Shown here: positions 57,534 to 63,359 of the stretch, one piece after another | Layout: each line of letters starts with the position of its first letter | Position numbering within the stretch: the stretch's first letter is position 1 | Source: Aequorivita vitellina | GTDB lineage: Bacteria; Bacteroidota; Bacteroidia; Flavobacteriales; Flavobacteriaceae | DNA length: 64,000 nt | Assembly: GCF_022008365.1 (NCBI RefSeq) | Contig: NZ_JAIRBA010000023.1 | Span: 1-64,000 of the forward strand | Reading direction: 5' to 3' | Made by a program: the position numbers and the translations under genes | Notes under the pieces: generated by a model | The model's database searches: none | Told to the model about the DNA's origin: nothing | Seen by the model: only the letters and a program-made list of their open reading frames with translations

Positions 57534-60023
57534 TTAATTTATAAGAAGCTTTTTAGTTACGGTTCCTTCTTCACTGCTAATGCGAACAAAATACGTTCCT
57601 TTTGTTAAAGATGAAACATTCACCGAATGTTTGTTTGAAATTAAGGCTTCAGCTTCATAAACGAGTAATTTTCCAGAAATATCAAAAATGCGAATCTCCG
57701 CATTTAGTGCTTTTGGTAAGGCGATGGTAAATACAGAAGTAGTTGGATTTGGAAACAAGACAACGGAGTTTGCAGAAATTCTATCTTCAACTCCTGCGGT
57801 ACCTGCCACTAAAGGAGAAGCCCATAAGCCTCGACCGTAGGTTCCCGCGTATATTTTACCATCTGCTTTATTAATTTCTAATTCGTTTACATATACATTT
57901 GGCAAAAGATTGCTGTAAGGCTGCCAATCTGTAAATGTATTATCGATGTAATAAATTCCGTAATCCATTCCTAAATAAAGGCCGTCTTCGCCATTATTGT
58001 CCCACACTAGAGCGAACGCGCTAAAATTAGGAAGGTTCTTTTTGTAACTGGTCCACGTATTTCCGCCATCGTCAGAAACCATAACACGATTTGCTGAAGT
58101 TACTGCAACTGCAATTTTATCGGGATTAGTTGGGTGAATTGCGATGGCATTTATTGCCCCACCAGGACTGGTAATTTGACTCCAATCTGTTGCGCCTCCA
58201 TCGGTGGTTTTAAACATAAATGCTGCTCGTGAAGCATACATTACTTGGTTGTTTGATGCGGCTATTTTTAGGTTATTTAAATTGGCACCCAAATTTTGAG
58301 AAACTGAGGTCCAGCTATTGCCAAAATTACTAGACTTATACACCACATTATAACCTACATATATTGTGTTTTCTTCAATGGGGTCTTGTTCAAAAGGTGT
58401 AACCCAATTTCCTGAACCACTCCCCGGCTCATTTAGGCCGGTATATGTGTTCCCGCTGTTGCTAGTTCTATACAATTGACCACCTTGAGTAGTACCGTAA
58501 TAGAGGCTGCTATTTGTTTTGTCAATAAACGACTCCATTCCATCTGCACCTAACCAGTCTTTCCAACCCGTTGCAGCGGTATATGCAGAAGTACCATTAT
58601 CTTGAGAGCCTCCAGAAACAATTACATCTGCCGTTTGGGAAACCCCAATTTTGTAGAATTGGCGAATTCCGAGGCCTTCGGTTAAATCTTCGTAATAATT
58701 TGCAGTAACCGTTACTGTATTTGCTGCTTTAAAAACACCTCCATCGGTTACGGCAAAAAGTGAGGTGCCATAAAATTGAAGGTCATCCACATCGGCGTGG
58801 CAATACCCTATGTTTTGAGAGGCGGCATTTCCAGGAATCCAATCGGAAGTGCAGGAAAAAGCAACTCCACCATTCGTTGAACGCCAAGTAAGTATTCCTG
58901 CAATGTGAACTTCGTTTACATCGGTTGGGTTTACAGCAATTGCCATATCGCGCGGTGCCTGTCCGCTATTATCATTACCCGATGTGCTATATCCAAAGAA
59001 GTTTAGACCACCGTGATTTAATTTTGTAAATGCATCTCCACTGTTACTTGAAGTGTAAAAGCCTCCAAATTTACCATTTAAAGCCTCCAATACGTAAACA
59101 ACATTTGCATCGGCTGCGGAAACGCCAATCATTTTTGCGCCCGAACCAAAACCTCCTATGGTAGTAAAGGTAGCACCGCCATCGGTAGATTTATGAAATC
59201 CACTTCCCGAAGCATAAACTACAGAAAGGTCGCCAGGTTTAAACTCTACGTCATACCCTCTGTTATCTGTTACTGGTTTTATCCAAGTAACTCCACCGTT
59301 AACAGATCTATAAACACCTGCATTGTCTGCAGTTGCAAACATGATATTAGTATCATTGGGGTTAATTAATATTTTGTTTACAATACTATTGCCTATGGTT
59401 CCTAAGAGCGTCCAGGTTGCGCCGGCGTCTGTAGATTTAAAGATATTTCCGTTGGTTGAACCAAAGAAGTAGGTGTTAGAATCTGTTGGGTCAATAGCAA
59501 CCGAATACACCGAAAGACTTGAAAAATAGTCGCTTAACGGAGTCCACGTTTGGGCACCGTCTGTAGTTTTCCAAACCCCGCCAGTATTAGCACCTACAAT
59601 CATGTGGTTTGCATCACCCTCGTCAATTGCGAGCCCGGTAATTCTGCCTACCCCTGGATTCCAGCCCGAAGTTGCATTCATATAGTCCGGACCTAATTCT
59701 TCCCAGTTATCGCTAAGAACGCTTCTATTTGCAGATGTTTCATTTAAATATGCATTCCATTGTTGAAGTTCGTTTAATCGCTCCTCTGTAGTTGGAAGAA
59801 ATCCGTTTTCTTTAACCCTACGCAAGGCATTGTATTCCCAACGTTTAAATTGTTTGTAGCCCGAACCTCTTCCCTTGTCTTTCCCAGCAAAGTAGGCTTC
59901 AGCACTGTCAATAACGTCTTGCACTTTATAAGTGCCCGCATCTATCATTTTAAGATATTCTTGTGCTTGACTGGTAAAGGAACCAAAAAACAATGCACAT
60001 AGAAATAGTAATTTAAACCGCAT
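57534..60023 (-). CDS. Secreted BNR/VPS10-type beta-propeller protein with T9SS tail
   Basis: 829 residues: signal peptide (cleavage near SQAQ), a helical N-terminal part to about 110, then many sialidase-like BNR blades with Asp boxes such as STDAGATWT, SVNGGVTWI, TSNSGNTYT and SDDGGNTWT, forming one or two propellers (about 120-730), and a type IX sorting domain (LFPNPTTSVFTIALPK to the end). Similar proteins are extracellular binding or glycan-related propellers; no catalytic set is identifiable. Its promoter is a single -7 box at 60069-60076. Confidence 0.88.
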   Translation of the reverse strand: MRFKLLFLCALFFGSFTSQAQEYLKMIDAGTYKVQDVIDSAEAYFAGKDKGRGSGYKQFKRWEYNALRRVKENGFLPTTEERLNELQQWNAYLNETSANRSVLSDNWEELGPDYMNATSGWNPGVGRITGLAIDEGDANHMIVGANTGGVWKTTDGAQTWTPLSDYFSSLSVYSVAIDPTDSNTYFFGSTNGNIFKSTDAGATWTLLGTIGNSIVNKILINPNDTNIMFATADNAGVYRSVNGGVTWIKPVTDNRGYDVEFKPGDLSVVYASGSGFHKSTDGGATFTTIGGFGSGAKMIGVSAADANVVYVLEALNGKFGGFYTSSNSGDAFTKLNHGGLNFFGYSTSGNDNSGQAPRDMAIAVNPTDVNEVHIAGILTWRSTNGGVAFSCTSDWIPGNAASQNIGYCHADVDDLQFYGTSLFAVTDGGVFKAANTVTVTANYYEDLTEGLGIRQFYKIGVSQTADVIVSGGSQDNGTSAYTAATGWKDWLGADGMESFIDKTNSSLYYGTTQGGQLYRTSNSGNTYTGLNEPGSGSGNWVTPFEQDPIEENTIYVGYNVVYKSSNFGNSWTSVSQNLGANLNNLKIAASNNQVMYASRAAFMFKTTDGGATDWSQITSPGGAINAIAIHPTNPDKIAVAVTSANRVMVSDDGGNTWTSYKKNLPNFSAFALVWDNNGEDGLYLGMDYGIYYIDNTFTDWQPYSNLLPNVYVNELEINKADGKIYAGTYGRGLWASPLVAGTAGVEDRISANSVVLFPNPTTSVFTIALPKALNAEIRIFDISGKLLVYEAEALISNKHSVNVSSLTKGTYFVRISSEEGTVTKKLLIN

Positions 60024-61936: not shown

Positions 61937-62010
61937 CTTTGAATGTTTTTTATGAAAAATACAATTCTTCTTTCCAAGATTTCATAAATGTTAGTTAAAA
62001 TGAACATTTC

Positions 62011-62046
62011 GTGAAACAATTTGCCGTTTTCAACGTCTATATAATA
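62011..62046 (+). promoter_or_regulatory. ECF-type promoter of small RNA candidate 1
   Basis: GTGAAAC (62011-62017), 16 bases, CGTCTATATAATA (62034-62046). Upstream GTTAAAATGA (61994-62003) is also shared with the second copy. Confidence 0.6.
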
Positions 62047-62153
62047 ATAACAATTTATTCTTTACTGTGAAATTTTTACGTTGATGGTTAGTGTTAATAA
62101 TAGCAGTAAAGATTCAAACCCGGGGCAAAATGCTTCGGGTTTGTTTGTTTTTT
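62047..62153 (+). ncRNA. Small RNA candidate 1
   Basis: No open frame of note. From the predicted start about 62,047 a 9-base stem pairs TCTTTACTG (62059-62067) with CAGTAAAGA (62104-62112), followed at once by a terminator hairpin. Length about 105 bases. Paralogue of the next candidate by promoter, architecture and size, though the transcribed parts differ. Confidence 0.55.
62115..62153 (+). terminator. Terminator of small RNA candidate 1
   Basis: CAAACCCG / CGGGTTTG stem, then TTTGTTTTTT. No protein gene on this strand lies upstream within reach except the SSS gene 500 bases away, beyond an opposing gene. Confidence 0.8.
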
Positions 62154-62189
62154 AAGGTGTGTTATTGTTGTGTTAAATGACGGTTTGCA

Positions 62190-62226
62190 GTGAAACTATT
62201 CTGTGTTTTTAATCGTCTATATAATA
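62190..62226 (+). promoter_or_regulatory. ECF-type promoter of small RNA candidate 2
   Basis: GTGAAAC (62190-62196), 17 bases, CGTCTATATAATA (62214-62226), 180 bases after the first copy; the 13-base -10 region is identical. Upstream GTTAAATGA (62172-62180). Confidence 0.6.
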
Positions 62227-62330
62227 GATACCTAAAATTTCATTTTATAATTTATTTGAATTAGCCTTTAACGAATTATACCTTTTTTAGGTAAAATAAA
62301 AGCCTTTCGGTTTTGCTGAAAGGCTTTTTT
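62227..62330 (+). ncRNA. Small RNA candidate 2
   Basis: About 100 bases. TACCTAAAA (62229-62237) pairs with TTTTAGGTA (62285-62293), and TATAATT with AATTATA inside it, giving one long imperfect hairpin; a terminator hairpin follows. No plausible protein frame. Confidence 0.55.
62298..62330. terminator. Bidirectional terminator (small RNA 2 and fabH)
   Basis: AAAAGCCTTTC / GAAAGGCTTTT with T runs on both sides; 22 bases past the fabH stop on minus. Confidence 0.85.
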
Positions 62331-62351
62331 ACATTTGTTATTTTGAAGAAA

Positions 62352-63359
62352 TCACCATCTAATTATAGCGCTTCCCCAAGTAAATCCGCTTCCGAAGGCT
62401 GCCAACACCACCAAATTTCCTTCCTTTATTTTTCCTTCTTCCCAAGCTTCGGTTAAAGCAATTGGAATAGAAGCAGCGGTAGTGTTTCCATATTTTTGAA
62501 TGTTGTTAAAAACCTGATCGTCTGTCAATTTCATTTTATGTTGAATAAACTGCGAAATGCGCAAATTGGCTTGATGCGGAATAAGCATATCAATATCATT
62601 CACGGCAAGACTATTTGCTTCCAAACCTTCCTTGATAACTTCAGAAAAACGCACAATAGCGTGCTTAAATACAAACTGCCCATTCATTACGGGGTAATAG
62701 GGTATATTTTCTTGTGGGTTATCTTCAATTATTTCGGGCACCCAGTATTCGGTACTTGGACCCCGCAATGAAAGCTCGTTTTTATGTTGACCTTCACTGT
62801 GAAGGTGGGTTGATAAAATTCCACCTTTTCCAGTTTCATTTCTAGAAACCACTGCTGCACCAGCACCGTCGCCAAAAATTACCGAAACATTTCTTCCGCG
62901 CGTTGTAAAATCGAGTCCGCCACTGTGATTTTCGCTACCAATTACCAAAACGTTTTTATACATTCCCGTTTTCACAAACTGATCTGCAACCGAAAGTGCA
63001 TATACAAATCCGCTGCATTGGTTGCGAACGTCTAAAGCAGGAATGGTCCGCATCCCCATCATTTCCTGCACTTCTACCCCACCGCCCGGAAAATACATAT
63101 CTGGGCTAAGGGTTGCGAAAACAATCATATCTATATCGTTCGGCTTTAGATTAGCGCGTTCCAACGCAATTGTTGACGCTTTTACAGCCATAACAGATGT
63201 AGAATTGCCATCGCCCTTTTTAATATGCCTGCGCTCTTTAATACCCGTGCGTTCTTGAATCCACGCATCATTAGTATCCATTAATTTTGAAAGATCGTCA
63301 TTGGTAACCACATTTTCAGGCACATAATGACCCAAACCAGTTATTTTTGAAGTGTACAT
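62352..63359 (-). CDS. fabH: 3-oxoacyl-ACP synthase III (KAS III)
   Basis: 335 residues from MYTSKITGLGHYVPE (63359); the frame opens earlier to 63404 but that lies upstream of the promoter at 63383-63410. The catalytic triad is visible: C115 in RNQCSGFVYAL, H262 in IPHQANLRIS and N292 in KYGNTTAAS. It condenses acetyl- or branched acyl-CoA with malonyl-ACP to begin fatty acid synthesis. No rpmF or plsX neighbour, so it may be one of several copies. Confidence 0.94.
   Translation of the reverse strand: MYTSKITGLGHYVPENVVTNDDLSKLMDTNDAWIQERTGIKERRHIKKGDGNSTSVMAVKASTIALERANLKPNDIDMIVFATLSPDMYFPGGGVEVQEMMGMRTIPALDVRNQCSGFVYALSVADQFVKTGMYKNVLVIGSENHSGGLDFTTRGRNVSVIFGDGAGAAVVSRNETGKGGILSTHLHSEGQHKNELSLRGPSTEYWVPEIIEDNPQENIPYYPVMNGQFVFKHAIVRFSEVIKEGLEANSLAVNDIDMLIPHQANLRISQFIQHKMKLTDDQVFNNIQKYGNTTAASIPIALTEAWEEGKIKEGNLVVLAAFGSGFTWGSAIIRW

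Follow-up and report, generated by a model that had tools for sequence, protein, structure and literature searches.

The window, a 64,000-nucleotide stretch of the genome of Aequorivita vitellina (Flavobacteriaceae), carries two short units between positions 61994 and 62335, each made up of an ECF-type promoter, a stem-loop and an intrinsic terminator on the plus strand. Both are flanked by a gene for a CoA-binding protein and by fabH, each on the minus strand. In unit 1 the stem-loop (62059-62112) is followed by terminator 1 (62115-62143, then a T-run), while in unit 2 the stem-loop (62229-62293) is followed by terminator 2 (62298-62328). We call the corresponding RNAs sRNA A (62044-62150, about 105 nt with an approximate 5' end) and sRNA B (62227-62335, about 107 nt). 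The minus strand of the window also encodes, at 57534-60023, a large protein with Sortilin-Vps10-like stretches and a sorting tail of the Por secretion system.

Structure and conservation of the two RNAs

Each RNA is delimited by a match to its model (62044-62147 for unit 1 and 62227-62333 for unit 2), by its fold and by covarying base pairs. The predicted fold of each transcript is better than that of all 200 shuffled sequences, with z values of -5.4 for unit 1 and -5.7 for unit 2; as these fall to only -2.3 and -2.8 when the terminators are removed, the terminators supply much of the signal. In sRNA A a closing stem with arms at 62059-62068 and 62103-62112 encloses the sequence UUUUUACGUUGAUGGUUAGUGUUAAUAAU (62073-62101), a candidate pairing region that is nearly invariant in the genus alignments. 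The closing stem of sRNA B has arms at 62229-62237 and 62285-62293, and next to its first arm lies the antisense region (62238-62266), the complement of GGCTAATTCAAATAAATTATAAAATGAAA. Both terminators were returned by a terminator scan, and terminator 1 shows compensatory changes. Terminator 2 faces the end of fabH at 62352 and has a T-run on the opposite strand as well; the scan reported it on the plus strand only, and it is possibly bidirectional, serving fabH too.

A DNA search recovered the region from every one of the 28 genomes of the genus, our own included; unit 1 could be extracted from 28 of them and unit 2 from 27. The unit-1 copies of two of these genomes (G002 and G009) are divergent and still match the unit-1 model. 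In a sample of 349 family genomes, 219 have a match to this model at E≤0.1. Nineteen matches of intermediate score were inspected, all of which contain the loop core GGUUAGUGUU and 18 of which lie near fabH, a symporter gene or the CoA-binding gene. The unit-2 model matches 230 of the 349 genomes at the same threshold, mostly through weak A+T-rich hits; for the conservation of unit 2 in the family we rely instead on the 29 rows that reach E≤0.001, of which 21 lie no more than about 3 kb from the unit-1 match. Direct inspection of 34 genomes recovered the core of sRNA B in 28, preceded by a -10 box of the GTCT type (CGTTA in G203). At three loci (L008, L045 and L046) sRNA B carries insertions of palindromic CCTGCC..GGCAGG repeats in its inner part, beside the pairing region.

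The stems of both RNAs covary. Among 69 rows fitted to the unit-1 model 98.1% of cells are paired, compared with 79.0% in the shuffled control and at most 55.9% when the pairing is slid, and changes on both sides occur in 20 of 22 pairs. The corresponding values for unit 2, from 41 distinct rows fitted to its model, are 95.3%, 86.0% and at most 60.9%, and 20 of 31 pairs have changed on both sides. A MAFFT alignment of unit 1 within the genus leads to the same conclusion from less variable rows, with two-sided changes in 11 of 22 pairs. The genus alignments comprise 26 of 28 rows for unit 1 and 23 of 27 for unit 2, near-identical, truncated and insertion-bearing rows having been excluded, and one alignment (A5) includes an antisense row (L015, plus strand).

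Intergenic, non-coding and equipped with its own promoter and intrinsic terminator, each unit has, as read from its sequence, the features of a trans-acting sRNA gene. The original prediction of two tandem small-RNA genes with ECF-type promoters is borne out by the sequence, the folds, the covariation and the promoter motif. The layout of promoter, stem and terminator that it described, with spacers of 16 and 17 nt, is seen in both units, and the stems, whose loss in relatives it had named as a refutation, are retained there with covariation in both. As to its statement that no protein frame accounts for the terminators, a 23-codon frame from 62084 does cross terminator 1, but it is unlikely to be a gene because its versions in the family stop at different codons and because the stem covaries, and we therefore rejected unit 1 as a protein gene. 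The Rfam search that it called for gave no match at the gathering score in the window, the region itself giving weak sub-threshold matches only, among them MicC, which scores far under the cut-off.

Promoters and the sigma factor

Promoter 1 (62012-62039) consists of TGAAAC at 62012-62017, a 16-nt spacer and CGTCTA at 62034-62039, and is preceded by a GTTAAA element (61994-61999) that starts 18 nt before the start of the -35 element. In promoter 2 (62191-62219) the same hexamers lie at 62191-62196 and 62214-62219 with a 17-nt spacer, and GTTAAA lies at 62172-62177. All of these elements are on the plus strand, and both promoters align across the genus; the putative assignment of both promoters to the ECF type rests on the motif. 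A scan of the whole 3.63-Mb genome with TGAAAC-N15..17-CGTCTA gave two matches, which are these two units, compared with one match for the reversed pattern. The TGTAAC form was scanned in 856 kb of the same genome, where TGWAAC..CGTCT gave four matches, two of them units 1 and 2.

In many relatives a gene for an outer-membrane beta-barrel protein (about 812 aa; the copy scanned has PF14905) lies between the two units. Promoters were compared among the 80 unit-1 loci listed for named genomes, of which there are at least that many. Among these the loose promoter motif is present at 77 of 80 unit-1, 41 of 43 unit-2 and 21 of 38 outer-membrane-gene sites. GTTAAA occurs within 30 nt upstream in 74 of the 77, 36 of the 41 and 11 of the 21, respectively. 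The distance from GTTAAA to the -35 element, start to start, is 18 or 19 nt in 117 of 121 cases across all three promoter types, including all 74 unit-1 promoters that have the element. Of the 77 unit-1 promoters, 58 have TGTAAC as the -35 element and 19 have TGAAAC. As either hexamer can stand before the same gene, their difference is variation within one promoter, and the second ECF factor that had been proposed from this difference is not supported.

The two promoters had been described as duplicated blocks 180 bases apart. The spacing of the repeat at the promoters is indeed 180, and the motif is shared, but a repeat search returned a single 20-nt repeat of 90% identity; as this common block is essentially the promoter motif, duplication by descent lacks support. 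Units 1 and 2 were likewise rejected as paralogues, their likeness being confined to the promoter. A search for further members of the promoter family in the 28 genus genomes (TGAAAC-N15..17-CGTCT) gave 154 matches compared with 124 for the reversed pattern, and since units 1 and 2 account for 50 of the former, the remainder is at the level of the control. A TGAAAC..CGTCTA site was also seen ahead of a frame for a secreted protein at locus L055 (G017), with similar matches in G003, G005, G018 and G022, and the L055 gene is perhaps another member of the regulon of the same sigma factor.

Complementarity of sRNA B to SusC-type leaders

The original prediction contained neither the antisense match described here, nor the inter-unit outer-membrane gene of relatives, nor the degree to which GTTAAA is conserved. 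Elsewhere in its own genome unit 2 has a 24-nt match of 96% identity (G000:C175), the opposite strand of which is the leader of a SusC-type gene. With one mismatch, positions 62243-62266 of sRNA B can be paired with 24 nt of this leader, up to the last base ahead of the ATG. Comparable matches to unit 2 elsewhere in the genome (89-100%) are listed for 26 of the 28 genus genomes, two of which were inspected. Both predicted sRNA B targets in our genome encode CarbopepD_reg_2 and Plug domains, and the designation SusC-type is our own reading. In a genome of another genus (G034) all 29 nt of 62238-62266 are perfectly complementary to a SusC-type start, across the ATG; sRNA B was not recognised in G034 itself.

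Duplex energies were calculated for 24 Plug-domain frames, the starts of several of which are uncertain. The two SusC-type genes gave -33.5 and -24.0, with none of 200 shuffles as good in either case. Three other Plug-domain frames (-18.5 to -20.6) also passed the best control, which was -17.4 among 38 genes of the window, and for one of the three 69 of 200 shuffles were as good. In a sample of 690 genes from 856 kb, in which both SusC-type genes were included on purpose, they rank first (z -6.8) and third, with an unrelated gene between them (-24.1, z -4.4). A loose form of the motif gave 27 matches in the genome compared with 17 for the reversed control, a number that says little; the signal lies in the position of two matches, which fall 7-8 nt ahead of the start of SusC-type genes.

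When 249 family genomes were searched for the motif with ATGA after it, at least 91 matches were obtained in 59 of them, compared with four for the reversed pattern. Inspection of 30 such loci identified 21 as SusC-type starts, which share near-identical signal peptides, three as sRNA B itself and six as other sequences. For sRNA B the predicted pairing thus involves conserved complementarity to the initiation region of a distant mRNA, as expected of a trans-acting sRNA.

The two partners also change together. In 30 genomes with both, matched pairs have a mean energy of -26.1 kcal/mol compared with -22.6 kcal/mol when permuted, and none of 10000 permutations was as low. The targets were chosen by the motif and ATGA pattern, so that their first 12 bases are fixed, and not every one of the 30 was identified as a SusC-type gene; G078 has two sRNA B copies, of which the first was taken. 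The variable bases agree in 22 of the 25 genomes that could be typed (G203, with its two target types, is included here), disagree in three and are untypable in five of the 30. The agreeing types are TAAA/TAAA in 14, TTAA/TTAA in six (one also with a TAAT target) and TAAT/TAAT in two. Among the three that disagree is the genus of the window, of which both genomes in the set are affected, sRNA B and leader differing at one base and being shifted against each other by one base at the ATG. The independence of these changes is overstated, because the types partly follow clades and the permutation ignores clade structure. An earlier set of 24 genomes had given -26.7 compared with -23.5 permuted (0 of 10000); the set of 30 supersedes it and brings in poor pairs (G190, G255) as well as a mismatched type (G254). 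Twelve further motif-bearing genomes were searched for sRNA B beside sRNA A, which was found in six (G146, G190, G255, G254, G282 and, doubtfully, G193, all counted within the 30) and not in the other six. As neither these six nor G034 gave sRNA B, some leaders keep the motif with no recognised sRNA B.

For sRNA A, conserved complementarity to an mRNA initiation region was not found in searches of its own genome and of the family. A 19-mer of the loop with three mismatches found only itself, and a 12-mer with one mismatch gave 20 matches compared with 37 for the reversed control. The pattern AACACTAACC..ATGAAA gave 48 matches in 38 of 249 family genomes compared with 22 reversed; one of these is sRNA A, the genes are mixed and the roughly twofold excess is not convincing. 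Duplexes with the leader of the beta-barrel gene at 11 loci range from -11.9 to -23.4 kcal/mol with no consistent site. The best predicted partner of the loop among the 690 genes is the start of a gene named from its sequence as MscL-like (z -4.0; L432 ~2088, G000:C109), a match that could be chance.

A candidate envelope circuit and its alternatives

We consider it likely, with a probability of roughly 0.72, that units 1 and 2 are trans-acting sRNA genes of an outer-membrane ECF-sigma regulon in which sRNA B blocks the translation of SusC-type importers and sRNA A acts on other mRNAs. The computation establishes the RNA genes, their covarying stems, the promoter motifs, the synteny and the complementarity with its co-variation; from these we infer that the units are transcribed, and likewise the sigma factor, which way regulation runs and an inducing stress. 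An active ECF sigma would transcribe both sRNAs, together with the intervening beta-barrel gene in relatives that have retained it. The apical loop of sRNA B would expose UUAGCC and pair with GGCUAA in the 5' leader of SusC-type TonB-receptor mRNAs, after which the duplex could spread through the weak A-U hairpin of sRNA B up to the start codon. With the start codon region paired, ribosome entry would be blocked and less importer would be made. sRNA A, built like sRNA B, probably acts on another set of mRNAs through its invariant loop.

Most of what is known of post-transcriptional control in Bacteroidota comes from Bacteroides, and the phylum is not known to have the usual RNA chaperones. In enterobacteria the envelope ECF sigma factor (sigma-E) drives MicA and RybB, Hfq-dependent sRNAs that lower the amount of outer-membrane proteins. 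sRNA B would resemble them in its putative ECF-type promoter, assigned by motif, and in its predicted outer-membrane targets, whereas the phylum and the promoter are different and, with no Rfam match at the gathering score, units 1 and 2 were not placed in any known Rfam family. FopS and GibS are sRNAs of Bacteroides thetaiotaomicron, of which FopS represses the translation of SusC-like importer mRNAs; as described in PMC11697453, FopS has a single-stranded 5' seed followed by a terminator, canonical sigma-ABfr promoters and 14 members, and has been deposited in Rfam. By that description both FopS and GibS pair with the mRNAs of SusC-like importers close to the start, as is predicted for sRNA B, likewise a Bacteroidota sRNA (PMC11697453). 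sRNA B differs in that its pairing region lies inside a conserved stem-loop, not in a single-stranded 5' R1 seed ahead of the terminator, and in having no Rfam match, an ECF-type promoter and genes at one conserved locus; a further trait of the FopS family is binding by the RRM protein RbpB.

Rfp11 of Flavobacterium psychrophilum, a structured and conserved sRNA with an ECF-type promoter (SM6, CGT -10 box) as described in PMC9723704, belongs to the same family Flavobacteriaceae as units 1 and 2, and is likened to them by that description, not by sequence or place. OmrA and OmrB are twin sRNAs acting on outer-membrane proteins (see PMC12692685). They share sequence, whereas units 1 and 2 share only promoter motifs. 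By analogy, the envelope response proposed here would likely work in the manner of FopS and MicA/RybB. Neither sRNA A nor sRNA B was found in print in the open-licence literature, and they represent at least two RNA families that could join Rfam. SusC-type importers are a means of polymer uptake in marine flavobacteria. The circuit proposed for them can be tested directly, the sRNA cluster being conserved and its target site explicit and co-varying.

The strength of pairing does not give the direction of regulation, and sRNA B might instead activate or stabilise the SusC-type mRNAs, or their leader might act as a sponge for it, as the several motif sites per genome in some species (four matches in G223) would allow. 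We regard this as unlikely, given that the pairing in our genome stops immediately before the start codon, the classical site for blocking initiation, and that FopS represses the SusC-like mRNAs with which it pairs, as described in PMC11697453. It is slightly less likely that the motif ahead of SusC-type genes is kept for another reason, as a leader or translation element or as a DNA site, with sRNA B a non-regulating descendant of an inverted copy. Retention of the motif in some genomes with no recognised sRNA B would be accounted for in this way, as would the conserved N-terminal coding sequence of SusC-type genes, but not the change in step of sRNA B and leader in all but three of the 25 typable genomes.

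The least probable explanation that we considered concerns unit 1, which could be a cis-acting leader or attenuator of the downstream outer-membrane gene of relatives, left over after loss of the gene. The gene is absent from between the units in the window, which appears to reflect a loss in its lineage. Of the 80 listed loci, five are too short to score; a frame of more than 600 aa begins no further than 600 nt from unit 1 at 38, and no such frame is seen at the other 37. In the 38 the gene starts about 120-400 nt past the unit-1 core. A strong terminator nevertheless separates unit 1 from the gene, which has its own TGTAAC..CGTCT promoter at eight Aequorivita loci (a ninth, L040, has no such frame) and the loose motif at 21 of the 38 listed loci. 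Unit 1 is moreover kept where the gene is absent (37 of the 75 scorable loci), and in other genera the sRNA A element begins no more than about 50 nt from the stop codon of a frame that resembles the beta-barrel gene, or directly at that codon, like a 3'-UTR element (L140, L143, L145, L146, L148, L149, L150, L151, L153 and L154). sRNA B was recognised at no fewer than 25 of the 38 loci with the gene and at least 18 of the 37 without it, both lower bounds because the pattern misses variants (for example G011, G012 and G021).

Extending the reading of units 1 and 2 as trans-acting sRNA genes, it is possible, if somewhat short of even odds, that the circuit is family-wide. One ECF sigma, recognising a composite promoter (GTTAAA, TGWAAC 18-19 nt on, CGTCTA), would then chiefly fire two or three unrelated sRNAs beside fabH, each directed at a different class of outer-membrane mRNA, and sRNA B would have co-evolved over more than 20 nt with SusC-type starts, one sRNA controlling a whole paralogous importer family. 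In other genera a third type of RNA lies before fabH (L139, L140, L143, L145, L146, L148, L149 and L153), ending with TTGGTTAATAG and a terminator. A CGTCT box is found upstream of it at all eight loci, and GATAAGTT near its start at six of the eight.
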